44,925 bases of DNA from a bacterium (GTDB taxonomy: Bacteria; Patescibacteriota; Minisyncoccia; JAHIHE01), in NCBI GenBank assembly GCA_030693205.1, contig JAUYBG010000022.1:1-44925 (forward strand), read 5' to 3'. The position numbers and the translations under genes were made by a program. Below are positions 1,738 to 34,866 of this stretch, one piece after another (position 1 is the stretch's first letter; each line of letters opens with the position of its first letter). The notes under the pieces were generated by a model. The model was not told the DNA's origin. It made no database searches and saw nothing but the letters and a program-made list of their open reading frames with translations.

Positions 1738-2151
1738 TTATACTTTCGATTTATTTATAAATTTACCAATTTCCCAGAATGCTTTAATCGGATTTTTTAT
1801 TATTTCATGCTCCCAGATTCTCAAAATTTTCCACCCTTGTTTTTTCAGCTTTGCTCGATTTCTTTTATCGCGCAAGATATTTGATTTAATTTTTTCTCGC
1901 CAGTATTTTTTGGGAAGCCTCTTCTCATCTTTTAAAAAATATCTTCCGTGCCAGAAGTCCCCGTCAATAAAAATTGCTATCTTTTTTCTAGGAAAGGCGA
2001 TGTCAGGGGAACCAGCGGCTTTTTTATAATGTTTTTGGAAATAGATTTTTCTTTTCCGGAGCTCGCAAAAAACAATGCGCTCAGCTTTTGTATTTTTCGA
2101 GCGAATTTTTGACATTATTTCGCTTCTTTTCTTTTTAGAAAAAACGTCCAT
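1738..2151 (-). CDS. vsr: Very short patch repair endonuclease Vsr
   Basis: This is a 137-residue Vsr-family endonuclease, the usual length. Vsr nicks 5' of the T in T:G mismatches created when 5-methylcytosine deaminates in a methylated site. Visible family signatures are the N-terminal SEIMSKIRSKNTKAE block, the SPDIAFPRKKIAIFIDGDFW core with the catalytic Asp and the FxDGxFWHG motif, and the C-terminal GWKILRIWEHEI block. The gene diverges from the LexA-methyltransferase gene across a 98-bp region and is followed on the same strand by the DUF5677-like gene. Pairing with a cytosine-5 methyltransferase is the classic arrangement (as with dcm-vsr), which supports both calls. Start at 2151 is chosen because it begins the conserved N-terminus. 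Confidence 0.93.
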   Translation of the reverse strand: MDVFSKKKRSEIMSKIRSKNTKAERIVFCELRKRKIYFQKHYKKAAGSPDIAFPRKKIAIFIDGDFWHGRYFLKDEKRLPKKYWREKIKSNILRDKRNRAKLKKQGWKILRIWEHEIIKNPIKAFWEIGKFINKSKV

Positions 2152-2187
2152 AAAACATTGATTAAAAATCTGTGGATAACTACCGCT

Positions 2188-2216
2188 TTGATTTTCGGTT
2201 CCTTTTCGGTTATAAT
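2188..2216 (+). promoter_or_regulatory. Promoter of LexA-methyltransferase gene with tandem 9-bp repeats
   Basis: A -35-like TTGATT (2188-2193) and a perfect -10 TATAAT (2211-2216) are separated by 17 bp. Two copies of TTTTCGGTT (2192-2200 and 2203-2211), 11 bp apart, fill the spacer and overlap both boxes. An 11-bp period places them on the same helix face, as expected for an autorepressor operator. That the fused LexA domain binds them is inference. Confidence 0.6.
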
Positions 2217-2249: not shown

Positions 2250-3827
2250 ATGCAAACTCTGACAAAAAAACAAAAACTGGTCTTCGATTTTATAAATACA
2301 TATCGAGCTGAAAATGGCATTTCGCCCACGATTGAAGAAATTAGGAAGAAGTTAAAACTTAGGGCGGTTTCAACAATTCACGAACATATAAATACCCTAA
2401 AAGAAAAAGGCTATCTTTCAAAATCTGATAATTCAGCAAGAGGCATCTCTCTTAAGAAAAAAATAAAATCAATTATTGAGATTCCAATTATTGGGAGAAT
2501 TGCTGCCGGTCAGCCGATTGAAGCAATAGAGAATATAGAGGATACGATTTCACTTATAAATCCTAGCATTAAAACCTCAGAGGGTTATTACGCGCTCCGT
2601 GTTGTCGGTGAAAGTATGATTGACGAAGGTATTTTTGATGGCGATATTGTCGTGATTAAAAAACAATCAGTAGCAGAAAATGGACAGACAGTCGTGGCCA
2701 TTATTGACGACAACGAAGCAACGCTTAAAAAGTTATATCGGGAAAAAACAAGATTTCGGCTAGAACCGAGAAATCAAAGCTTGCTCCCTTTTTATAGAAA
2801 AGAAGTTGAAGTGAGGGGCGTGGTTGTTCAGATAATTAGGAATATAGATACAAAAGAGGAGAAAAAACCACAAAAAAAGACAAGGCATGGATTCAGAACC
2901 ATTGACCTATTTGCAGGTATTGGCGGAATAAGGATTGGTTTTGAAAATGCTGGTTTTAGCACTGTTTTTGCAAATGATTTTGAACCTCAATGTAAAGAAA
3001 CATACGATCTTAATTTTAAGGATTCGAAATTAATTGTTGAGGATATAAGAAAAATCGGCATAGACGATTTGCCAGAATTTGATTTTTTATTAGGCGGGTT
3101 CCCTTGCCAAGCATTTTCTATCGCAGGATATAGGCAGGGATTTAACGACGAAAAAGGGCGTGGAAATTTATTTTTCGATATTGCGCGGATTATCGATGCT
3201 CGTAAGCCAGAAGGTTTTCTTCTAGAAAATGTAAAAAATCTAAAAAGCCATGACGGGGGAAAAACTTTCAAAATAATCGAGGAAACATTGAAAAATCTCG
3301 GCTACCACATAAAACCTAAAGTCTTAAATAGCATGGAATACGGGAATATTCCGCAGAATCGAGAACGAATTTATATTGTAGGTTTCAAAAATAAAGATTA
3401 TGCCGACAAGTTTTCTTTTCCCGATCCGATAAAACTATCGAAAAAGATCAATGACTTGCTAGAAAAAAATGTCTCTGAAAAGTATTATTACAATGGAAAA
3501 CCTTTATATGAAAAATTGAAAGGTTTTGTAAAAGAAGAAGGAAAAGTATATCAATGGCGCAGGCAATATGTCCGTGAAAATAAAAGCGGTGTTTGTCCAA
3601 CGCTCACAGCAAACATGGGCATGGGGGGGCATAATGTGCCCATTATTAAAGATAAGAAAGGAATTAGGAAACTGACTCCGCTAGAATGCGCTCGCGTTCA
3701 AGGTTTCCCGGAAAATTACAAATTGCCGCAAATTGCAGATTCTGCCCTATATAAACAGCTTGGAAATTCGGTAAGCGTGCCAGTAATTGAGGCTGTCGCA
3801 AGACAAATGATGAAAGCAATGGAATAG
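2250..3827 (+). CDS. LexA repressor fused to DNA (cytosine-5) methyltransferase
   Basis: A 525-residue two-part protein. Residues 1-198 are a full LexA: winged-helix DNA-binding domain (1-65), cleavage site Ala86-Gly87 in IGRIAAGQP, catalytic Ser122 in VVGESM and Lys160 in EATLKK, so autocleavage looks intact. After a charged linker (200-214), residues 215-525 are a complete cytosine-5 methyltransferase: motif I IDLFAGIGG (218-226), motif IV GGFPCQ with catalytic Cys286, motif VI ENV (326-328), motif VIII PQNRERIYIVGF, a recognition region near 385-465 and final motifs RKLTPLECARVQGFP and QLGNSV. It is convergent with the probable endonuclease gene (2-bp gap) and divergent from vsr. I infer that it methylates the cognate site and represses its own promoter, with RecA-stimulated cleavage possibly separating the halves. 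The target sequence is unknown. Confidence 0.93.
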   Translation: MQTLTKKQKLVFDFINTYRAENGISPTIEEIRKKLKLRAVSTIHEHINTLKEKGYLSKSDNSARGISLKKKIKSIIEIPIIGRIAAGQPIEAIENIEDTISLINPSIKTSEGYYALRVVGESMIDEGIFDGDIVVIKKQSVAENGQTVVAIIDDNEATLKKLYREKTRFRLEPRNQSLLPFYRKEVEVRGVVVQIIRNIDTKEEKKPQKKTRHGFRTIDLFAGIGGIRIGFENAGFSTVFANDFEPQCKETYDLNFKDSKLIVEDIRKIGIDDLPEFDFLLGGFPCQAFSIAGYRQGFNDEKGRGNLFFDIARIIDARKPEGFLLENVKNLKSHDGGKTFKIIEETLKNLGYHIKPKVLNSMEYGNIPQNRERIYIVGFKNKDYADKFSFPDPIKLSKKINDLLEKNVSEKYYYNGKPLYEKLKGFVKEEGKVYQWRRQYVRENKSGVCPTLTANMGMGGHNVPIIKDKKGIRKLTPLECARVQGFPENYKLPQIADSALYKQLGNSVSVPVIEAVARQMMKAME

Positions 3828-3829
3828 GA

Positions 3830-4873
3830 TTATATTTCTTTCGCGATGTGCTCAAGATTTTTTTCGGTTTCGGTGATTAATTTTTTGGACTGCAAAGACG
3901 GGATGTTTCTTTTCGCTATCCAAATATTATTTCTATTTAAAGCAGGGTTTCTCCCGACCGTATGAAGATTGAAAAGATATGTCTTCCCTTTTTCCAGATT
4001 GAATGTTCCAAGCACATCATTTGAAACTACAACATTAGTAAGGCAATGAATAAATCGCCGTGAGCTTTTTTGATTAAGTTTTTCGTATGATTCAATTTTG
4101 CCGTTGAATTTAATATTCCCAATAAACTTAGGATCTGGAAATTTGCTATCCATAACATATCTTTCGAGAACGCCATTTGAAAAAGTCCCGATCTTCTTTA
4201 GTTTTCCCTTGCCTATATTGCTGTCCGTCTGTTTTCCAGCAATTTCAAATATCTCTGTTTCATACATAAAAAAACCTTTCTTAAATTCGATGCCATGTTC
4301 ATCTAGCTCTTTTCCAGATATGGCATATTCAATAACTATCTCGATATTTTCAATGCTGGTAAAATCTTTAAATATCTCAGACTTAAATTTGTCTCTAAGA
4401 TAAATTCCCAACAGATCTTTTTGCTTGATATTCCCTTGATTGTTATTCTGTATATAAGCGCCTATGACAAAAATATTCTCTGGCTTAGATGATCTTTTAA
4501 TCGTATCAAATTGTTCAAGCGTAAGACCGATCCACCGATCATCTTTGGAAATGTTTTTTATTTCCAAAAAACACTTGGGCTTTCTCTCTTTTCTATTTTC
4601 TACAACACTAACGATATCTGGTTCATTTAGAACTTCGTTGTTTTGCTTGATATCGAAATCTAAAATATAATCTTTGCTCGGATTTAATGATTTAAGAACA
4701 TTAGCAACTCCAAGCTCAACGAGTTTTCCCAGAATGAAACTGTCCAAAACTCCGCCCAAACCTCTTGAAGCCCCAGATGTTCGAGAAGACTGAGATTTTT
4801 TTGGTTCAAGATGATACCTAAGGGCAAAGTTAAACGCGGTATCGAAATCTTTTCTTGTAATTTTATATTTCAT
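3830..4873 (-). CDS. Probable type II restriction endonuclease
   Basis: A 347-residue soluble protein with no confident family match by eye. Residues about 84-107 fit a PD-(D/E)xK nuclease core: NEPDIVSV, then CFLEIKN 20 residues on, giving the Asp and the Glu-x-Lys pair. The context is the main evidence: it is convergent with the methyltransferase fusion (2-bp gap) and lies 3 bp downstream of the XRE controller gene on the same strand. This is the usual C-R operon facing an M gene. It would cut the site that the fused methyltransferase protects. The last third (from about residue 225) is unrecognised and could be the DNA-recognition part. An alternative is another nuclease class, but position favours the cognate endonuclease. 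Confidence 0.72.
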   Translation of the reverse strand: MKYKITRKDFDTAFNFALRYHLEPKKSQSSRTSGASRGLGGVLDSFILGKLVELGVANVLKSLNPSKDYILDFDIKQNNEVLNEPDIVSVVENRKERKPKCFLEIKNISKDDRWIGLTLEQFDTIKRSSKPENIFVIGAYIQNNNQGNIKQKDLLGIYLRDKFKSEIFKDFTSIENIEIVIEYAISGKELDEHGIEFKKGFFMYETEIFEIAGKQTDSNIGKGKLKKIGTFSNGVLERYVMDSKFPDPKFIGNIKFNGKIESYEKLNQKSSRRFIHCLTNVVVSNDVLGTFNLEKGKTYLFNLHTVGRNPALNRNNIWIAKRNIPSLQSKKLITETEKNLEHIAKEI

Positions 4874-4876
4874 AAT

Positions 4877-5098
4877 CTATTTAATAAAAAACGATATGTC
4901 TTTCCGATATATTTTTGCGAATTCCCGTAAATGAACAATGTCAATACGCCGCTGACCCGCTTCAACCTTGGAAACATGGGATTGTGTCTTGCCGAGCAAT
5001 TTTGCAACTTCTGCCTGATCTAAGCCCGCTCCTTGGCGAGCTTTTTTTAATTGCTCAACAATGTATTTATGGTCTTTTGAATAAATTGCTTTTGTCAT
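4877..5098 (-). CDS. XRE-family controller (C) protein of the R-M system
   Basis: A 73-residue helix-turn-helix protein, typical C-protein length. The Cro/C1-type HTH spans most of it: QLKKARQGAGLDQAEVAKLL, then GKTQSHVSKVEAGQRRIDI with the SxVSKxExGQR recognition-helix pattern, ending DISFFIK. Longer in-frame starts at 5125 and 5224 exist, but a TATAAT box lies between 5113 and 5118 on this strand, downstream of both. The start at 5098 is therefore the only one of the three that can be translated from that promoter, though with a very short leader. It is followed after 3 bp by the endonuclease gene. C proteins delay endonuclease synthesis until methylation is established; that role is inferred from family and position. 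Confidence 0.82.
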   Translation of the reverse strand: MTKAIYSKDHKYIVEQLKKARQGAGLDQAEVAKLLGKTQSHVSKVEAGQRRIDIVHLREFAKIYRKDISFFIK

Positions 5099-7361: not shown

Positions 7362-7576
7362 CCGCCTCGTTCGGCTTTATCCTATTTTTCGTATTCGTGC
7401 CTCGTTGGAATTATTGCATTTATTCTATCAAATATGGTTGAAATTGCAATATTAAGCATAAACAGCAATGTTGCGTTTTAATGCAAAATTCATCTGATCA
7501 TGTTAAATTGTGGATAACATAATTAGTCATTAAAACCAGAATGTGTTATAATTAATTATAGGATTGTGTCTGACTA

Positions 7577-7703: not shown

Positions 7704-8204
7704 ATGGTTAATACTACATGCCCAAAAATTGACGAGCGTATATATAAAAACGCTGTTTTGTATTTTATTAAGTATTGTAATAATCAGTATTTACACGGCA
7801 CAAAACTTAATAAGCTTTTATATTATCTTGATTTTGTATATTTTCGTGATCATAAAAAATCTATTACTGGAGATTTATATATTCATCAAGAATATGGTCC
7901 TGTACCCTCACATGCTGGCGAAATACTTACTGAACTTAATAGTGACCAAGCGATTGATATTCAAACCATTGACTACAAAAATGGCGAAATGATAAATTTT
8001 AAGATTAAAGATTCAACAAAATTAGACGAGTCTGTTTTCTCCGTTGATCAAAGTAAACTGCTTAAGCAAATTTGTGACGAATTCGGAAATTGGCCGACCG
8101 ATAAAATCGTTGCGCAGACGCATCTTGAAGCGCCTTGGTTTTATTCAAAACCGTATGAAGTTGTCGATTATGCCTATGCAAGCGACATTGATTTCTTTCG
8201 GTAA
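7704..8204 (+). CDS. Panacea-domain (DUF4065) antitoxin, PanA-like
   Basis: A 166-residue protein matching the Panacea/SocA-like domain (DUF4065): YFIKYCNNQYLHGTKLNKLLYYLDF near the start (residues 17-40), then YFRDHKKSITGDLYIHQEYGPVPSHAGEIL, in which the ITGDxYxxxxYGPVP motif is diagnostic. The C-terminal part has SKLLKQICDEFGNWPTDKIV and THLEAPW. Panacea proteins act as antitoxins for many unrelated toxins. The next gene starts 12 bp downstream on the same strand and encodes a plausible RelE-like toxin, so I read this as an antitoxin-first module. It sits between two recombinase remnants. No DNA-binding domain is added, so how it is regulated is unclear. Confidence 0.85.
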   Translation: MVNTTCPKIDERIYKNAVLYFIKYCNNQYLHGTKLNKLLYYLDFVYFRDHKKSITGDLYIHQEYGPVPSHAGEILTELNSDQAIDIQTIDYKNGEMINFKIKDSTKLDESVFSVDQSKLLKQICDEFGNWPTDKIVAQTHLEAPWFYSKPYEVVDYAYASDIDFFR

Positions 8205-8216
8205 TTTGTTACGCAT

Positions 8217-8600
8217 ATGGCATGGATTTATGTTGAAAGAGAACAGTTTGTCCGCATGTGCGATAAGATCGTTATTTCTATTACTGTACGTGAAGCAATT
8301 AAATCATGGGCACCTACTGTAGGTCGGAATGAAATTCCTCGTCAAAAGCTTGTTTATAGATCACCAAAAAATAGTTATGAAGCTTGGGCCGCTGGTATAC
8401 CGAATCCCGATAGTAATAAAGGGAAAAGTGGTGGTTATCGGATTGTTTATTATCTTATTCTTAGAGAAAATACTATTAATCTTGATTTTATTGAAGAACG
8501 TAAAGAGCTTGGCTTCCATGGCGAAGGTCACCGAAAAAAAGATAAGTATAATGATTATATCCGAGATTTAAAAGAATATTTAAAAAAACTTGATTCGTAA
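8217..8600 (+). CDS. Probable RelE/ParE-superfamily toxin partner of the Panacea antitoxin
   Basis: A 127-residue basic protein. The second half resembles the RelE fold: GKSGGYRIVYYLILRENTIN, in which GGYRIVYY corresponds to the usual strand, then LDFIEERKEL, a basic KKDKYNDYI segment and a C-terminal helix. The first half (YRSPKNSYEAWAAGIPNPDS) is less typical, and no catalytic residue can be assigned with confidence. No clear ribosome binding site precedes the ATG at 8217. Translation coupled to the antitoxin 12 bp upstream is likely; an internal Met at residue 14 is an alternative start. A terminator hairpin at 8599-8627 closes the pair. The toxin role is inferred from the Panacea neighbour and fold pattern. 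Confidence 0.68.
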   Translation: MAWIYVEREQFVRMCDKIVISITVREAIKSWAPTVGRNEIPRQKLVYRSPKNSYEAWAAGIPNPDSNKGKSGGYRIVYYLILRENTINLDFIEERKELGFHGEGHRKKDKYNDYIRDLKEYLKKLDS

Positions 8601-8892: not shown

Positions 8893-9879
8893 ATGCAAAT
8901 TATTAAACCAGCAAAACTTAAAAAAGGCGATGAAGTGCGAGTTATTGCGCCATCAAGATCAATGTCGATTATCGCCGAAGAAAGTAAAAATATCGCGAAT
9001 CGTCGATTTTTCGAAATGGGGTTGAAATTGAGTTTTGGCAAACACATTGAAGAAGTAGACGAATTTGTTTCCTACTCAATCGAATCGCGCATTGAAGATT
9101 TGCATGAGGCGTTTAGTAATCCTGATGTAAAAGCGATTTTTACCGTGATTGGCGGATTCAATAGTAACCAGCTTTTAAGATACATTGATTGGGATTTAAT
9201 CAAGAAGAATCCAAAGATACTCTGTGGCTTTTCCGATATTACCGCTTTGAATAATGCGATATATGCCAAGACAGGCCTGATAACTTATTCTGGGCCACAC
9301 TATTCAACTTTTGGCCATGAGCTGTATTTTGACCATACTTTAGAATATTTTAAAAAATGTTTACTTCAAGACAAACCTTTTGAAGTCTTACCAAGTAAAA
9401 ATTGGACTGATGATATGTGGTGGGCGGATCAAAAAAATAGAAATCTTGTTCCTAACCCTGGTTGGCTAGTGATAAACGAAGGAGGAGCAGAAGGAACGAT
9501 TGTTGGTTCTAATCTTTGCACATTTAATCTTTTACAAGGAACTGAGTATTTCCCTAGCTTAGAAGGTTCGGTATTGTTTCTCGAAGACGATGAAGAATCA
9601 AAGCCATATCATTTTAATAGAGACTTGCAATCCCTCATTCATCTTCCTGAGTTCAAAGGAGTGAAAGGAATTGTTATCGGTAGATTTCAGAAGGCTAGCC
9701 AGATGACAGATGATAAATTAATCAAGATAATAAAGACCAAAAAAGAATTGGATAAAATTCCAGTCATTGCCAATGTAGACTTTGGACATACTGATCCAAT
9801 AATCACTTTTCCAATTGGCGGAACAGCAAGAATGCGAGTAGAAAAAGAAAATTCAAAACTAGAGATTATCGAACATTAG
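8893..9879 (+). CDS. S66-family peptidase (LD-carboxypeptidase / MccF-like)
   Basis: A 328-residue cytoplasmic serine peptidase of family S66. LdcA members trim the terminal D-Ala from murein tetrapeptides during recycling; MccF members hydrolyse the toxic form of microcin C and related acyl-sulfamoyl adenylates. Visible features are the N-terminal PAKLKKGDEVRVIAPS, the nucleophile elbow GFSDIT with Ser114, VLFLEDDEES with the likely catalytic Glu231, and VDFGHTDP with His299. The segment AIYAKTGLITYSGPHYSTFG (residues 121-140) is closer to MccF-like members than to classical LdcA, so immunity or detoxification is possible. It stands alone between the accessory region and the kinase gene. No signal peptide is seen. 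Confidence 0.87.
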   Translation: MQIIKPAKLKKGDEVRVIAPSRSMSIIAEESKNIANRRFFEMGLKLSFGKHIEEVDEFVSYSIESRIEDLHEAFSNPDVKAIFTVIGGFNSNQLLRYIDWDLIKKNPKILCGFSDITALNNAIYAKTGLITYSGPHYSTFGHELYFDHTLEYFKKCLLQDKPFEVLPSKNWTDDMWWADQKNRNLVPNPGWLVINEGGAEGTIVGSNLCTFNLLQGTEYFPSLEGSVLFLEDDEESKPYHFNRDLQSLIHLPEFKGVKGIVIGRFQKASQMTDDKLIKIIKTKKELDKIPVIANVDFGHTDPIITFPIGGTARMRVEKENSKLEIIEH

Positions 9880-26505: not shown

Positions 26506-29500
26506 ATGATTAAAAGATTTTTAAAAATATTCAAAAATATTTTTATATTTCTGGTTATCACAGGGGTGGTTTTTTCCAATATCCCTTTTTATGCTTTGAC
26601 AGAGTTAGTCGATTCTTATGAAAAAACCAGCGGCATTGTGGATAAAGTTTGGCTATTGCAAAACGAACATCAGTCCAGAGTGGTTGATAATTTTTCATCG
26701 CTTCGCAATTTGGCGGAAAAGATGAAAGTGCGTGAAGCGCGAGCGGCAGTATCCGTTCGCAATGTGGGAGCATATGTGAGCGGCACAGCTAACTTAACGC
26801 CCGTTATTCCTGCTACCGCGGTCGCGGGTGATATGATGCTTTTGGCCTACGGCACAAAACCGTATAATGACGCCCCCACAATTAATCAAGGATGGATAAG
26901 TATCGGTTCCGCAACAGACGGCACAGTAGCGGCCGGCGTTGACGTCGGTTCAATGCAAACGAGTATTTACTATAAAGAGCATACGGGGTCAGAAACAAAT
27001 CCGACAATTACCAATGGTACAAACAATGTTTCCGGAGCTGCAATTATCGTATTTCAAAAAGGAGCGAGCGAAACATGGGAAACTCCCGTTGGCGCGGGCG
27101 GCGGAGACGCTACGGCGGGAACGGGATTTTCCGTTACCGCTTCCGCTAACCCGGGAATAACTTTGGGAGATATGCTCGTGGGTTATGCCGCTATCCGCTC
27201 TGATGCCGGCGCGCAATCGGCAATCGGTATTACCGCAACCGGATTGACGGTTGGAGCGTTCACGGAATACCCCGCATCAGATTTAATAACGACATCGGGC
27301 GGGGATATGGCGATGTCCGGCGGTTACCACTTGGTTACTGCAGGCACAGCTTCTGCCGCTCCGGTCTATGCCTCTACTTTGGCGGCTGCGCATACGGGTT
27401 CGGCTTTTATAGTGAGATTGCGAGCAACAACGCCGGCTGATACCACCCCTCCGACTCCAAACCCGATGACTTTTGCCACGCCGCCGGCAAACTTCAGCGT
27501 TAGTCAAATAGATATGACGGCGACCACGGCTACTGATGCGACTACGCCGCCAGTCAGTTATTTTTTCACTCTTGATAATTCTATTTGTGCCGCCAATGCC
27601 GGCACAGGCGGCACTTCCAGCGCGTGGCAGGCAGGAACTGCTTATAGCGATACTTTGCTTCAGCCGAACCAATGCTATGGCTATACGGTAAAAGCTCGCG
27701 ATTCGGCCGGCACCCCGAATGAAACTACCGCTTCCGGAATTTCTTCAGCTTATACTTCGGCTAATGTGCCGGGCACGCCGACTTTAAGCGGAGCAACGGT
27801 GTCAACATTGAATTTAACTAATGCCGAAAATAGCAACCCTGCTGCCAACCCGACAACCAACTTCGCCGTGCAAGTGGTTACCACTACACCCAATGATGCT
27901 ACTTGGATTAATCAATGGGTAAATGCCACTGGCAATCCTTCGGCCACGGCAGTTTGGTTAACTGATGCGCAATTGGACGCTTTGGTTTTACAAGGATTGC
28001 AAGGAAGTACTTTATATGGAGTTAAAGTAAAAGCACGAAACCAAGATACTGACGAAACCGCCTTGAGCGCGGAAGGGCAGGGGACGACATCGGCGCCTAC
28101 GCCGATAGTAACAACCACCACTACCGGCACGCAGACTGTTAATATTGATGCCGGCGCGACCGGACAATATCTTGGCGGCGCTTGGCGTTTCCAGCAAAAT
28201 TCCGGTTCAGCTGATACAATTACGGCTTTGACAATTTCCGATACAGGTACGATAAACGCTAATCTCAATGCTTCTAATGCGACACTTAGATATTCGACTG
28301 CTAATGCCGGCACTTGTTCTTACGCCGGCACGGAAACCATCGCTAAAACAGGTGTGTCTTTTGATGCTTCGGATAAAGCGGCGTTTACCGCTTTGACTTC
28401 CAGTATTCCTTTGACAATAAGCCCGAATTATACCTGTGTATATTTAATAATCGATGCGGGTGCCAATGCGGTGGGCGGAAATACGATTGAACCGCAAATT
28501 ACAGCCGCGGCTGATTTCACTCTTTCCGGCGGTTCAACCAAAGCCGGCACTTATCCGGTGGCGCTTGGAGGCATTACCACCGTTCGTCCTAATGTCACTG
28601 ATGCTACTGATTCGGCTTTGGCTGACGGCGGTAGAAATGGGGAAACGTTTACCATTACCGGCACCGGTTTTGGCACGGTTTGCGGATCAATTTCCGTGCA
28701 AGTGGCTGGCTTAGCTTTGACTTGCAACAGCGCGAACAATACGACTATTTCCGCGACTGTGCCATCAGCTCAAGTGACCACATTCGGCGGCACTGCCGCT
28801 AACGGTTTGCTGGTGACTGTGGGCGGCACGGCTGATGACGCGAGACTGACATATTATGTTTATCCGAATATTACTTCTGTTTCCGCAACTGCGACTGATG
28901 CGGCGCGAGAATTGGAAAGTATTACCTTGAACGGTACGCGATTTGATACGAATGCCAATCCCGGAACTGTTTATTTTACCGGCGGTTTTGGCTCGGTTGC
29001 GGCGTCAGTTACCACCTGGGGAGATACGGGCGTGATTGTCACTGTACCGGCGGCAATCGCCGATAATATTTACACCGGCGACATTACTTTAACTCGTGCG
29101 GCCGCTACCGGTTCAAAAACCGATTTGGCTTACGGCTCCAACACTTTTAGGATTCTGCCGAAAATCGCTTCCACTGCTCCAGTCAATCTTAAAGGCGGAC
29201 GAGGAGATACTATTTCAATCACCGGCGACCATCTTTGCCAATCCGGTGTTTGCCCTTCAGTATTCAGCGCGGCTAATAGTGTTAATTTTACCAGTGGATC
29301 AGTGACAAGCGGTTCTTCCACTTGGACCGACACTTCCATTCCTTCGATTGTAATTCCGGGCACGGCAACCGATGGAAATTTAAATATTACTTCCAATACT
29401 ACTTATACTTCCAACAATTTAACCTATGATATTAAATTCGCGCCGACTACACCGACCAATGGCGTGCCTGCCGGGCAATCAAGTATTGCTCTTAATCCGA

Positions 29501-32500
29501 CTATTAACAGTTCAGCATTTTCCGATGGTACTGACGCTGATACTCATCTTGATTCCGAATGGCAGATAGACGAAGAAGGGACATTTGTTACCCCTGAATG
29601 GAGTGAAACATTATCTAGCGCCAATGTTTCCGTTGTTGTAAATAACACGAACGGAGCATTTGCCGGACTTCTGGCCGGCCAAACTTCTCTTGTTTGCGGT
29701 AAAACATATTCTTTCAGGGAGAGGCATAAAGATAACGGCGGCGTAACTTCCCAGGAATGGTCAGGATGGGCAACCGCTTCCACGTTCAATACTATTTCCT
29801 GCGGACCGGATGCGACTTCGGTAAGTTATCAGGTCGGCGGCGATGGAGGGCGAAGCGGATACAGCGCTACTATAACAGGCGCCGGTTTTGGCACAGCGGC
29901 AGGCGGCAGTCGGGCAAATTGCGCGGGCGGCGCCGGCACCGGTTGCGTGAGATTTGTCGTCGGCGGTAATGCCACCGTGGCTGACGCTGATGTTACGGCA
30001 TGGACGGATACCTCTATCAGCTTTACTGTTAATTCTGCTCTTGCTTCTGACGGAGGCGCGCTGGCTTTGCAAGTAGTCGCCGCCGGCGTATCAGACGGCT
30101 CGCCGTTGAACTTTTATATTTATCCGACCGTCTCAAGCTATACCGCTACATTCGCCGATGGTGGTTATCAGGACGGCACGGTCACGATAAATGGCGATCA
30201 TCTCGGTTCATCCGGCGCGACGACAAATATTTCTTTTAATGGCACAAATCCCGCGAGCGTTGGCGTTTGGAATTCAACATCCATTAGCACGGTGGATACG
30301 CCGGATGCGGGTACTGATTCCGGCACGATCACTGTGACTCGAGCCAGCGATTCCAAAGCGTCAAACGCCTCGTCTGCTTTTTATATCTATCCGCAGGTTA
30401 CGGGAATTTCCGCCGCTACTTTTGCTGACGGCGGTTATCAGGATGGCACTTTTACTTTAAGCGGTAATCACTTTGGTGCCGGCGGCGTTGCAGCGAATAT
30501 TTCTATTAACGGTGTGGCTCCTTCTTCCATAGGAACTTGGGCAGTGGGCTCGGTCACTACGGTTGATATTCCCAATACTGGCACGGATTCAGGTGTGATC
30601 ACTTTGACCAATCCCGGCACTTCCAAAACTTCCAATAATTCAGCCGCATTTTATATTTATCCGCAGATTTCGAGCTATACCGCTTCCAAAGGAGATGGTG
30701 ATGTTCAGACTGCCACGATTACGATTTCCGGCAATCACTTTGGCGCCGGCGGCACGGGAGCCAATATTTCCGTCAACGGCGTGGCTCCTTCCTCTGTCGG
30801 AGTTTGGGGTGTGGGTTCGGTCACCGCGGTTGATATTCCCAATACCGGTACGGATTCAGGCGTGATCACTTTGACCAATCCCGGCACTTCCAAAACTTCC
30901 AATAACTCATCAACATTCTATATCTATCCGCAAGTCACTTCTATTTCCAATTGTGAAACTTTGGCGGCAGATGCCGCGCGTGAATACAGCGCTTCTGACG
31001 CCGCGTGTCCGGTAAGCGGACTTAAAGACGGACAGATCCATGTTAACGGCAATCACTTCGGCACGCCGGCCGGAGCGAATCCCTTGACTATTTTGGGTGT
31101 GGATACTTCCGGCTATACTTCGTGGACAACTACATTAGTAAGCACGGCGCAAGTGCCGGTTGCTATCGTTAACTCCACTTACATCGGCGACATTGTCATT
31201 AAAAGAAGCGATAACAAAACTCATGCTTATTACGGCGGAAATGTTTTCCGCATTCTGCCCAGGATCGCTTCCACTACTCCGGTTAATCTCAAAGGCGGCG
31301 GAGGCGATACCGGAGTGAGCATTGCGGGCGACCATCTTTGTCAGTCAGGCACTTGTCCGACTTTATTCAGCGCGGCCAATAGTGTTAATTTTATCGGCGG
31401 GTCAGTGACTTCCGGCTCTTCCACTTGGACCGATACATCTATTCCTTCAATTGTAATTCCCGGCACGGCAACGGATGGCGCTTTAAACATTACTTCCAAC
31501 ACTACCTATACTTCTAATAATTTAACTTATGATATTAAGTTCGCGCCAGCTACTCCGACCAATGGCGTGCCGGCCGGTCAATCAGGTGTGACTTTTAATC
31601 CGACGATCAACAGCTCGGCATTTTCCGACGGCACTGACGGCGACACTCATCTTGATTCTGAATGGCAGATTGACGAGGAAGGGACGTTTGTTACTCCTGA
31701 ATGGAGTGAAACATTATCCAGCGCCAATATCTCGGTAACGGTAAATAATACCAATGGAACATTTGCCGGACTTTTAGCCGGACAGACGGCTCTCGCTTGC
31801 AGTAAGACCTATTCTTTCCGAGAACGGCACAAAGACAATGGCGGAGTAACTTCCCAGGAATGGTCAGGGTGGGCAACCGCTTCCACGTTCAATACTGTTG
31901 CTTGCGGACCGAACGCGACTTCAATTTCCAATTCAACGGAAGGCACGCTTACCGACGGCGGCAGGATCAGCCAGACAATTGTTATTACCGGCACTGATTT
32001 TATCGGTGTTACAGCCGGAAATCGCGCTACTTGCGCGGGCGGCGCCGGCACCGGTTGTGTGAAGATCGGCGGCACTGGCGGACAGATCATTGCTGACGCA
32101 AAAGTGACTGCCTGGGGCGCCACCTCAATTACTATTCAATTATCTTTGACCGATCTGACTACGACTTATGGCGGCGCGACGACGAATGGTCTAATGGTCT
32201 ATGTTGCCGGCGTTTCCGATTCCGACGGCCTGACGTTTTATATTTATCCCGATATCACTTCTCTGACCGCGCCGCTGGGCGCAAATACCGGCGCCAGAGA
32301 ATACGCGTCTGGCGATACCGATGGAGTTTTCACTATTATCGGAAATAAATTCGGCACCGGACCGACCAGCGGTTCGGCCGTGATCGTCGGCGGGACAGTT
32401 GCGACTTTTGTGGCTGATGGCACTTGTGATGCCGCGGACGGCTGGGCGGAAACCTGTATAAAAGTTCAAGTACCGACAAGCATTTCCGACAGCACTGATT

Positions 32501-34866
32501 CCGGTTACGCGATCGTCACTCAAGGCGCCGGCACAAGCAATAAGGTTACTAATTCAACCGATGCGGAAAGCGCGATAAATATTTGGCCGAGAGTGACGGG
32601 TATTTCCGCCGCTACTCAAGCCGATGGCGGATATCAGAACGGAACATTTACTTTGAATGGCAGTCATTTTGGCGCCAGCGCCGGCTCTATTTTGGTTAAC
32701 GGGCAAACACAAGACGGTACGCCGACCTGGGGCGCGGCTTCAATTACCGGCGTCGGCATTCCCAATGCCGGCACGGATTCCGGCAGCATTGTTTTGACAA
32801 AATCCGACGCAAAAACTTCAAATTCCTGGTCAACATTTTATATCTATCCGCAGATCACGGGATTCACCGCTGCCAAAGGAGACGGCGATATACAGACAGG
32901 CACGATCACGATTTCGGGAAATCATTTTGGCACCAGCGGCGGCAACGCGCAGCTCTTGATCAATACCATTGCTCCGTCAGCGACCACTCCGACTTGGGGC
33001 GCAGTTTCGATCACTAATGTGGATATTCCAAACACTGGCGCTAATTCCGGCGTGGTCAAGGTGACAAATCCGCAGACTACCAAACAATCAAATGATTCTT
33101 CCGCTTTCTATATTTATCCGCAGATCACTTCTGTTTCCAATTGCGAGACTTTGTCGGGAGATACCGCGCGTGAATATAATGCCACTGATGCCGCCTGTCC
33201 GATAAGCGGATTAAAAGACGGTGAAATTCATATTAATGGCAATCACTTCGGTGCTACGGCGGGAACGCTCACTATTCTTGGCACAAGCGCTCCAACTTAT
33301 GTTTCTTGGGGAGCGAGCTTGATTTCCACCTTGCAAGTTCCGATCGCTATCGCGGACGATTCTTATACGGGCAGTATCGCGCTTACGCGTTCCGATGCCA
33401 CAACAAGCTCGTATACCGGTTTCAGGATTGCGCCGAGGATCATCTCTCTTAGCCCCAGCGATGGCGCGGAAAGTACCAGCGTAACGGTTATTGGAAATCA
33501 TCTCTGCCAAGCCGGTTCTGCTAATTGCCCGAACGCTTTTTCTTACACCACGCCGATCTCCAATGTTTTGTTCGGAACGACTAATGCTTTAGCTCAGACG
33601 CCTTGGGGTTGGGAAAATGGCGATAGTTCAGCAACAGGTGTTAAAGTTAAAGTGCCAGCCGGCGCGGGAATCGTAGCGGTAAAAGTGATTAGCGGCGTTG
33701 GCGGTTTTGATTACGAAAGCAATGCAAAAGATTTCAGTTATGTCTCTACCGCGCCGACTGACCCGACCAATTTGAGGCAATTTAAACCGGATGGTGTGAC
33801 TCAAATTACCATTGGCGCCGGCGTCAATAGCAATAGCGTTATCTTAAAAGGCGACAGCACGGCTTTGATTTCGATCAATATGGTCTTGGAAGTTGAAGTT
33901 AAGCAAACTTACATACCATTTGACGGCGCGCCGACCGCTTTAAGCGCGGTTCAAGGACCTGGTACTGTTTTTAGCGATGTCGCGGTAACGGTTTCCGGAT
34001 TAACTGATGGACTATATCATTGGCGAGCTAGAGCTAAAAATTCCGGTACCAACGAAGTTTCCAACTGGATCTCTTTTGGCGGAAACGCCGACGGCGTAAC
34101 AGATTTTTATGTGGACACCACCGGTCCGGTGATTTCCAGCGTTGCCGAAACTGATGTTTCCGATATTCAGGCGACTATTATTTGGAATACCGACGGAAGC
34201 GCTACTCAGCAAGTGGCGTATGGCACAGTCTGTCCGACCGCTCAAGCCAGCGCGGCCGCGACATTTAGCGTTTTGGCCAACAAGCAACCGGAGTCGCCGG
34301 CCGGTTCAGGCACTTCGCATTCAGTGGTTTTATCAGGCCTTATTGCCAGCAAAGATTATTATTATATGGTTCGTTCGGCCGATGCTATTGGTAATTATAC
34401 TTATAATCCGTCCGTTGCTAATTCTTGCAATAATTTTACGACCACGGCGCCTCGAACCAGAGTAATGAAAACCTTGGAATTTTACATCGAACAATTGAAT
34501 ACCGGCGCTACCAGTTTCAATAAGACTTTCGATACGTTTATTTCCGAATCAAAGATCGATCGCTCCAATATATTTATAAAAAGCGTTATTATTGAAGTTT
34601 TCGGAATTTCAAAAAGCGGAACCGGCGATATCACGGTTATTGTTAATTTGAATAGCTCCGAGACATCTTATGTTTTGGCTGATCCGGGTGCCAATAGCAC
34701 TTTTTGGAAATTCGCTAAAAATGCCAGTTCTTTGAACTTCGATTGTGTATCTTGCACGGATAATTTCAGTGTTGATAATTCGCTTGTTGTCAGCGTGAGC
34801 GGCGCGACCAGCACTTCTTTGCTTGGCGCCAAAGCCATCATTACTTATTATTATGAACCGTTATAA
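26506..34866 (+). CDS. Giant secreted repeat protein with many IPT/TIG-like domains
   Basis: A 2786-residue protein. An N-terminal signal/anchor (about 8-31) precedes a conserved beta-rich domain (80-312), fibronectin III-like stretches near 313-515 (PPTPNPMTFATPPANFSVSQ), and a long series of IPT/TIG-like Ig folds from about 700 to 2440 marked by GNHFG, GDHLC or GTGFG turns and FYIYPQ linkers. A further fibronectin-like part (about 2530-2640) and a C-terminal domain (2649-2786) follow. Large blocks are duplicated (883-1110 with 1583-1802; 1300-1585 with 2030-2310). There is no LPxTG motif or C-terminal helix. It is probably an extended surface or adhesion protein; the partner is unknown. Confidence 0.9.
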   Translation: MIKRFLKIFKNIFIFLVITGVVFSNIPFYALTELVDSYEKTSGIVDKVWLLQNEHQSRVVDNFSSLRNLAEKMKVREARAAVSVRNVGAYVSGTANLTPVIPATAVAGDMMLLAYGTKPYNDAPTINQGWISIGSATDGTVAAGVDVGSMQTSIYYKEHTGSETNPTITNGTNNVSGAAIIVFQKGASETWETPVGAGGGDATAGTGFSVTASANPGITLGDMLVGYAAIRSDAGAQSAIGITATGLTVGAFTEYPASDLITTSGGDMAMSGGYHLVTAGTASAAPVYASTLAAAHTGSAFIVRLRATTPADTTPPTPNPMTFATPPANFSVSQIDMTATTATDATTPPVSYFFTLDNSICAANAGTGGTSSAWQAGTAYSDTLLQPNQCYGYTVKARDSAGTPNETTASGISSAYTSANVPGTPTLSGATVSTLNLTNAENSNPAANPTTNFAVQVVTTTPNDATWINQWVNATGNPSATAVWLTDAQLDALVLQGLQGSTLYGVKVKARNQDTDETALSAEGQGTTSAPTPIVTTTTTGTQTVNIDAGATGQYLGGAWRFQQNSGSADTITALTISDTGTINANLNASNATLRYSTANAGTCSYAGTETIAKTGVSFDASDKAAFTALTSSIPLTISPNYTCVYLIIDAGANAVGGNTIEPQITAAADFTLSGGSTKAGTYPVALGGITTVRPNVTDATDSALADGGRNGETFTITGTGFGTVCGSISVQVAGLALTCNSANNTTISATVPSAQVTTFGGTAANGLLVTVGGTADDARLTYYVYPNITSVSATATDAARELESITLNGTRFDTNANPGTVYFTGGFGSVAASVTTWGDTGVIVTVPAAIADNIYTGDITLTRAAATGSKTDLAYGSNTFRILPKIASTAPVNLKGGRGDTISITGDHLCQSGVCPSVFSAANSVNFTSGSVTSGSSTWTDTSIPSIVIPGTATDGNLNITSNTTYTSNNLTYDIKFAPTTPTNGVPAGQSSIALNPTINSSAFSDGTDADTHLDSEWQIDEEGTFVTPEWSETLSSANVSVVVNNTNGAFAGLLAGQTSLVCGKTYSFRERHKDNGGVTSQEWSGWATASTFNTISCGPDATSVSYQVGGDGGRSGYSATITGAGFGTAAGGSRANCAGGAGTGCVRFVVGGNATVADADVTAWTDTSISFTVNSALASDGGALALQVVAAGVSDGSPLNFYIYPTVSSYTATFADGGYQDGTVTINGDHLGSSGATTNISFNGTNPASVGVWNSTSISTVDTPDAGTDSGTITVTRASDSKASNASSAFYIYPQVTGISAATFADGGYQDGTFTLSGNHFGAGGVAANISINGVAPSSIGTWAVGSVTTVDIPNTGTDSGVITLTNPGTSKTSNNSAAFYIYPQISSYTASKGDGDVQTATITISGNHFGAGGTGANISVNGVAPSSVGVWGVGSVTAVDIPNTGTDSGVITLTNPGTSKTSNNSSTFYIYPQVTSISNCETLAADAAREYSASDAACPVSGLKDGQIHVNGNHFGTPAGANPLTILGVDTSGYTSWTTTLVSTAQVPVAIVNSTYIGDIVIKRSDNKTHAYYGGNVFRILPRIASTTPVNLKGGGGDTGVSIAGDHLCQSGTCPTLFSAANSVNFIGGSVTSGSSTWTDTSIPSIVIPGTATDGALNITSNTTYTSNNLTYDIKFAPATPTNGVPAGQSGVTFNPTINSSAFSDGTDGDTHLDSEWQIDEEGTFVTPEWSETLSSANISVTVNNTNGTFAGLLAGQTALACSKTYSFRERHKDNGGVTSQEWSGWATASTFNTVACGPNATSISNSTEGTLTDGGRISQTIVITGTDFIGVTAGNRATCAGGAGTGCVKIGGTGGQIIADAKVTAWGATSITIQLSLTDLTTTYGGATTNGLMVYVAGVSDSDGLTFYIYPDITSLTAPLGANTGAREYASGDTDGVFTIIGNKFGTGPTSGSAVIVGGTVATFVADGTCDAADGWAETCIKVQVPTSISDSTDSGYAIVTQGAGTSNKVTNSTDAESAINIWPRVTGISAATQADGGYQNGTFTLNGSHFGASAGSILVNGQTQDGTPTWGAASITGVGIPNAGTDSGSIVLTKSDAKTSNSWSTFYIYPQITGFTAAKGDGDIQTGTITISGNHFGTSGGNAQLLINTIAPSATTPTWGAVSITNVDIPNTGANSGVVKVTNPQTTKQSNDSSAFYIYPQITSVSNCETLSGDTAREYNATDAACPISGLKDGEIHINGNHFGATAGTLTILGTSAPTYVSWGASLISTLQVPIAIADDSYTGSIALTRSDATTSSYTGFRIAPRIISLSPSDGAESTSVTVIGNHLCQAGSANCPNAFSYTTPISNVLFGTTNALAQTPWGWENGDSSATGVKVKVPAGAGIVAVKVISGVGGFDYESNAKDFSYVSTAPTDPTNLRQFKPDGVTQITIGAGVNSNSVILKGDSTALISINMVLEVEVKQTYIPFDGAPTALSAVQGPGTVFSDVAVTVSGLTDGLYHWRARAKNSGTNEVSNWISFGGNADGVTDFYVDTTGPVISSVAETDVSDIQATIIWNTDGSATQQVAYGTVCPTAQASAAATFSVLANKQPESPAGSGTSHSVVLSGLIASKDYYYMVRSADAIGNYTYNPSVANSCNNFTTTAPRTRVMKTLEFYIEQLNTGATSFNKTFDTFISESKIDRSNIFIKSVIIEVFGISKSGTGDITVIVNLNSSETSYVLADPGANSTFWKFAKNASSLNFDCVSCTDNFSVDNSLVVSVSGATSTSLLGAKAIITYYYEPL
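29155..29832 (+). repeat. Internal duplication in the giant gene, copy 1 (pairs with 31255-31918)
   Basis: The DNA here encodes APVNLKGGRGD through EWSGWATASTFNTISCGP. A second copy at about 31255-31918 encodes TPVNLKGGGGD through EWSGWATASTFNTVACGP. Long stretches are identical or nearly so at the nucleotide level, for example around TCCCAGGAATGGTCAGG in both. Recent duplication or gene conversion is likely. Confidence 0.85.
31255..31918 (+). repeat. Internal duplication in the giant gene, copy 2
   Basis: Second copy of the block at 29155-29832. The flanking domains differ, so a multi-domain unit was copied as a piece. Another block, about 30400-31250, resembles 32590-33430 in the order ADGGYQ(D/N)G, GDGD(V/I)QT, SNCETL. 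Confidence 0.85.

Follow-up and report, generated by a model that had tools for sequence, protein, structure and literature searches.

A LexA-methyltransferase fusion of a patescibacterium as a likely damage-responsive modification enzyme of type II restriction-modification

The window, by which we mean the whole stretch of 44,925 nucleotides analysed here, encodes on its plus strand (2250..3827, ATG 2250, TAG 3827) a protein of 525 aa in which a full LexA repressor is fused to a full cytosine-5 (C5) DNA methyltransferase. To judge from its sequence, this protein supplies the modification activity of a type II restriction-modification (R-M) system; it is very probably autorepressed and bears an intact LexA switch. 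We consider it quite probable that the LexA-autorepressed enzyme senses DNA damage and thereby equips the type II system with a restriction alleviation of its own. It is one member of what is apparently a widespread and undescribed family.

The fusion protein and its family

An earlier note made from the letters of the DNA had claimed a full LexA and a full methyltransferase in one frame, and we found that both halves of the protein score well above the curated cut-offs of Pfam and NCBIfam. The LexA winged helix-turn-helix (wHTH) spans residues 1-65 (Pfam LexA_DNA_bind, 57 bits against a cut-off of 23.7) and the S24 domain residues 79-193 (Pfam Peptidase_S24, 101 bits against 23.3), while residues 1-199 match the NCBIfam LexA equivalog TIGR00498 with 189 bits against 111. 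A linker at about 199-213 leads to the C5 methylase at residues 215-521 (317 bits in Pfam, 341 bits for TIGR00675 in NCBIfam). The predicted functional residues, namely the cleavage site A86-G87, the dyad S122/K160 and the catalytic C286 (PCQ cysteine), were confirmed at the positions claimed before, and the frame runs unbroken, and free of stops, from residue 198 to 215. A structure model made from 13 C5 fusions (mean pLDDT 78) has two folded parts and a low-confidence or disordered linker at 199-213, and Foldseek matched it to M.HhaI and Thermotoga LexA. A sequencing or assembly artefact was rejected in view of 46 non-redundant fusions and a second, 81% identical copy elsewhere in the same genome.

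This genome (1.0 Mb, 23 contigs, 100% complete) holds three further LexA-methyltransferase fusions, the C5 paralogue just mentioned and two of the N4/N6 type (PF01555). No stand-alone LexA was found in a search of the 23 contigs. The remaining S24 proteins are a signal peptidase and a small regulator whose neighbour is a putative three-Cys-motif partner gene, so each LexA_DNA_bind/S24 LexA found in the genome is methylase-fused. RecA is encoded in the genome as well. The third own-genome fusion shows a same-direction overlap with a second N6_N4 methylase gene (L003, 2-721, minus strand). Downstream of an own-genome fusion we noted a 129-aa gene whose family was not recognised (L004, 2916-3305); its homologue is joined to the methylase C-terminus in L016 (1468-3321), which amounts to a triple fusion.

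The database check for fusions and their neighbours that the earlier note had proposed yielded the 46 non-redundant fusions, usually with a convergent endonuclease gene, from many lineages of the Candidate Phyla Radiation (CPR), from Omnitrophota and from one viral contig. In a LexA profile search over 380 genomes of the phylum the fused LexAs head the list, in at least about 20 genomes, that of the window among them, and among the matches listed they outscore nearly all stand-alone LexAs; several of these genomes contain both a stand-alone LexA and a fusion. A scan of named genomes placed fusions in Nomurabacteria, Magasanikbacteria, Levybacteria, Berkelbacteria, Saccharibacteria, Uhrbacteria, Kaiserbacteria, Ryanbacteria, Curtissbacteria, Jorgensenbacteria, Roizmanbacteria, Tagabacteria and two Omnitrophota. 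Kinship places the genome of the window among the patescibacteria: a genome of its class contributes locus L010, which matches the Nomurabacteria record L038. Seven plasmid records and one phage record gave joined matches covering more than 80% of the query, which we treat as candidate matches. The methylases belong to the classes C5, N6_N4 (N4/N6), D12 and Eco57I/N6_Mtase, and the cleavage site (A86, G87) and Ser-Lys dyad (S122, K160) are kept in 46 of 46 fusions. We found no description of LexA-methylase fusions in the open-access literature; earlier notice of the direct-repeat box, or of a fusion, may exist in the 2017 work of Sanchez-Osuna on Patescibacteria LexA.

Promoter, operator and recognition helix

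At 2188..2216 on the plus strand, where a promoter had been proposed, we read a predicted sigma70-type promoter TTGATT-N17-TATAAT with the -35 element at 2188-2193, a 17-bp spacer and the -10 element at 2211-2216. Its -35/-10 spacer holds the putative operator TTTCGGTTCCTTTTCGG (2193..2209, plus strand), a direct repeat TTTC-N7-TTTC with a period of 11 bp. The pattern TTC[GT]-N7-TTC[GT] is present upstream of 42 of the 46 fusions (0.73 expected, maximum 3 in 100 shuffles), usually inside the spacer, and missing from the upstream regions of the other four; TTC[GT] direct repeats at other spacings from 4 to 13 were found in none of the 46. The stringent form of the operator has five copies in the whole genome, four at the LexA-methylase promoters and one intragenic, the latter being at chance level because a reversed control gives 3. 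No operator was detected upstream of recA in this genome by the stringent motif scan.

Operator and recognition helix vary together. Residue 45 of the helix is E or Q where the half-site reads TTCGG and F, Y or H where it reads TTC[GT]A, and has the highest mutual information with the half-site of 75 positions. The second half-site obeys this rule in 41 of 42 cases (Fisher p 5e-11), a covariation that is partly phylogenetic, with 7 changes each on the best tree but just one independent pair on well-supported branches. A LexA-type operator in the fusion's own promoter together with the covariation makes autorepression very likely as far as sequences can tell, which lends weight to the earlier note's suggestion that the protein represses its own gene.

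The geometry of the operator equals that of the alphaproteobacterial LexA box GTTC-N7-GTTC (PMC8565304), and a similar TTC-N7-TTC direct repeat is frequent in the promoters of stand-alone patescibacterial lexA genes. This repeat of the stand-alone genes, together with a 2020 paper that names work on Patescibacteria in connection with direct-repeat LexA motifs (PMC7739468), makes it probable that the fusions inherited their class of operator from ordinary LexA. With LexA as defined by TIGR00498 the fusion shares the wHTH, the S24 fold, the A-G site and the Ser-Lys dyad. Unlike LexA, it is fused to a methylase and its operator is found only at its own kind of gene; with the motif used, no multi-gene SOS regulon including recA was seen.

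Among methyltransferases, M.SsoII, M.EcoRII and M.Ecl18kI likewise have an N-terminal DNA-binding domain and an operator overlapping their own promoter, and likewise belong to type II R-M systems. As in these regulatory enzymes we find, in silico, the domain fusion and the operator in the own promoter, but the N-terminus is not confined to an HTH: that of the M.SsoII type consists of a small HTH, of about 70 aa in M.SsoII, and lacks a protease, whereas the fusion has a complete two-domain LexA. Enzymes of the M.SsoII type are moreover C5 methylases, in contrast to the C5, N4/N6, D12 or Eco57I types of the fusions.

A DnaA-box-like element, TGTGGATAAC (2171..2180, plus strand), accompanies the promoter and in many fusions precedes the operator by about 20-25 bp. 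The exact 9-mer occurs in 21 of 46 fusion promoters and a version with at most one mismatch in 32 of 46 (0.07 and 1.5 expected, respectively), and four of the 11 copies of TGTGGATAAC in the window's genome are at fusion promoters. A further copy in the window (7509-7518) precedes two genes (7704-8600), the first Panacea/SocA-like and the next one small, which by eye resemble a toxin-antitoxin pair.

Neighbouring genes and evolution of the two parts

A convergent gene accompanies 39 of the 46 fusions and ends between -21 and +30 bp from the methylase stop, most commonly with a 4-bp overlap; such tail-to-tail overlap could cause antisense interference with the endonuclease gene. The convergent endonucleases belong to at least ten Pfam families (Bsp6I, NgoFVII, MvaI/BcnI, BsaWI, TaqI, MamI, HindIII, EcoRV, BglII and ScaI), the partner of the own-genome paralogue being of the Bsp6I type, and at the level of the family the adjacent endonuclease of a type II R-M system is thus in place. 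In the window the corresponding gene (3830..4873, minus strand) follows convergently after a 2-bp gap and encodes a protein of 347 aa, by its position the presumed cognate restriction endonuclease. We read candidate PD-(D/E)xK residues around EPDI...FLEIK in this protein, which is an ORFan with no match in Pfam, NCBIfam, PADLOC, PDB sequences, plasmids or 287 relatives, and whose single-sequence fold model reaches a pLDDT of 32. As it has no recognisable relative, the endonuclease role rests on position and the candidate motif. GCNGC, the target to be expected in view of the paralogue's Bsp6I-type partner, is only weakly under-represented in the window (195 observed, 223 expected) and therefore says little on specificity.

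Upstream of the presumed endonuclease gene lies a small C-protein-like HTH gene (4877..5095, minus strand, 72 codons read, PF01381), which scores below the NCBIfam cut-off. Homologues with 47-85% identity are found in 11 other loci of the same kind, and across the 12 loci the small HTH is conserved together with promoter repeats. The LexA operator is absent from the small-HTH promoters of these 12 loci, with one distant exception at -128 in L053, so endonuclease and methylase seem to be separately controlled. In having a small HTH gene directly before the presumed endonuclease gene, and conserved repeats in its promoter, the locus may be likened to type II R-M systems with controller (C) proteins, but here the small HTH, whose C-protein-like action is a prediction, is paired with a convergent LexA-regulated methylase.

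In a tree of 75 LexAs, with weak root support and rows picked partly by similarity, the fused ones fall into one cluster of 53 that includes 7 unfused members, with 6 changes between fused and unfused labels against 23 expected for shuffled labels. Chance joining of LexA to a single methylase was rejected on account of the many methylase classes and the one LexA cluster. Among the nested unfused LexAs L059 faces an AlwI gene and L060 an Mrr gene, and for L058 and L022 no restriction gene is evident nearby. The unfused L086 and L094 are first in operons of overlapping genes including a C5 methylase, plausibly a precursor state of the fusion. A gene for a DpnI-family endonuclease directly follows another unfused LexA of this cluster in L052 (4998-6377). 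Sequence comparisons indicate that the LexA and methylase parts recombine freely: L016 and L055 are 92.6% identical in LexA and 18.7% in the remainder, whereas L007 and L040 share 73% in the methylase and 56% in LexA. Purifying selection acts on the LexA part, with dN/dS values of 0.025 and 0.062 for the two pairs that allow the best measurement.

Proposed damage response and alternatives

In the mechanism we propose, the LexA wHTH would bind TTTC-N7-TTTC in its own promoter and keep methylase expression low, and the converging endonuclease gene would be run from a separate promoter under its own small HTH controller. DNA might be broken by self-restriction owing to under-methylation, by replication or repair that makes unmodified DNA, or by infection, and RecA filaments on the broken DNA would stimulate LexA self-cleavage. 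It is plausible that RecA-stimulated cleavage at A86-G87 releases an active CTD-methylase, and RecA-triggered derepression of the fusion gene, with the cleaved HTH quitting the operator, is likely. The freed CTD-methylase would keep methylating, so that host protection would go up before further harm by the endonuclease; DNA damage would thus probably raise the protection of the cell's own DNA, as a restriction alleviation built into the type II system. Imbalance of type II R-M is known to induce SOS (PMC3874152), which would close a loop from low methylation through self-cutting, RecA* and LexA cleavage to more methylase. Against this reading, more methylation during infection would protect phage too.

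The LexA half could instead be a static autorepressor that only binds the operator and dimerises, cleavage being unused in the cell. Neither operator nor helix covariation requires cleavage, and HTH-methylase autorepressors with a small HTH are known from M.SsoII and M.EcoRII; we nevertheless regard a static repressor as rather unlikely, given the invariant cleavage site and Ser-Lys dyad in all 46 fusions, the low dN/dS of the LexA part and the RecA of the genome. A86, G87, S122 and K160 are residues that a static repressor would not need, which argues for a cleavable switch, but the stand-alone LexAs of the tree conserve them equally, and common descent or some other function could account for the retention of the S24 residues.

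The divergent upstream genes bear on another alternative, a hub of defence islands in which the fusion would mainly gate the divergent immune operon and autorepression of the methylase would be secondary. In the window the divergent gene (1738..2151, minus strand) encodes a Vsr T:G mismatch endonuclease (PF03852/TIGR00632, over cut-off), which also adjoins several other fusions. CBASS genes (cyclases) are divergent in L037, L054 and L247, and by similarity in L059, a ThsB-like TIR gene in L241 and PD-Lambda-3 in L243. CapK+CapS provide a precedent for DNA-damage regulators situated between R-M and CBASS; this pair, CapW/BrxR and CapH+CapP are likewise damage-responsive repressors beside immune operons, but they are unrelated proteins that control an adjacent operon and carry no enzyme of the system as a fusion partner. 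We think such a hub very improbable, because the operator is placed in the methylase promoter, and because the loci consistently have methylase and convergent endonuclease in common but differ in their divergent gene, which elsewhere is unrelated and need not serve defence. That fusions replace stand-alone LexA as general SOS repressors, tying methylation to the control of repair genes, is suggested by the lack of a stand-alone LexA in the window's genome and by the similar direct repeat of stand-alone lexA promoters, but is highly unlikely and was rejected as main reading on the operator distribution (four fusion promoters and one intragenic site, none before recA) and because stand-alone LexA and fusion occur together in other genomes. 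Of the link between methylation, restriction and the SOS state drawn in the earlier note, the fused switch thus stands and a general regulon does not.

It has long been asked how R-M systems spare their host once damage or replication stress has set in, and for type I systems alleviation is understood. For type II systems, no mechanism dedicated to such a coupling with damage is known to us. In the damage-sensing reading favoured here the modification enzyme itself bears the canonical DNA-damage switch, and LexA would have left its SOS role to become a dedicated regulator of defence in bacteria with very small genomes. The ClpXP-dependent restriction alleviation of EcoKI has the same proposed purpose, the guarding of unmodified self DNA after damage (PMC11109961); type I alleviation degrades the restriction complex, whereas the fusion would raise methylation in a type II system. 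We see an evenly balanced case for the wider view that LexA is a general, exchangeable control module of restriction in the CPR, a cleavable LexA with its promoter and operator having been joined repeatedly to unrelated methyltransferases, giving SOS-triggered type II alleviation and in some loci co-regulating a divergent immune operon (CBASS). In practical terms, a LexA-methylase gene with a tail-to-tail neighbour offers a simple genetic marker for unrecognised restriction endonucleases, such as the ORFan of the window.

Further along the window we noted by eye an MccF/LD-carboxypeptidase (S66)-like gene (8893-9879) and a repetitive, apparently surface-located protein of 2786 aa with IPT/TIG-like character (26506-34866).
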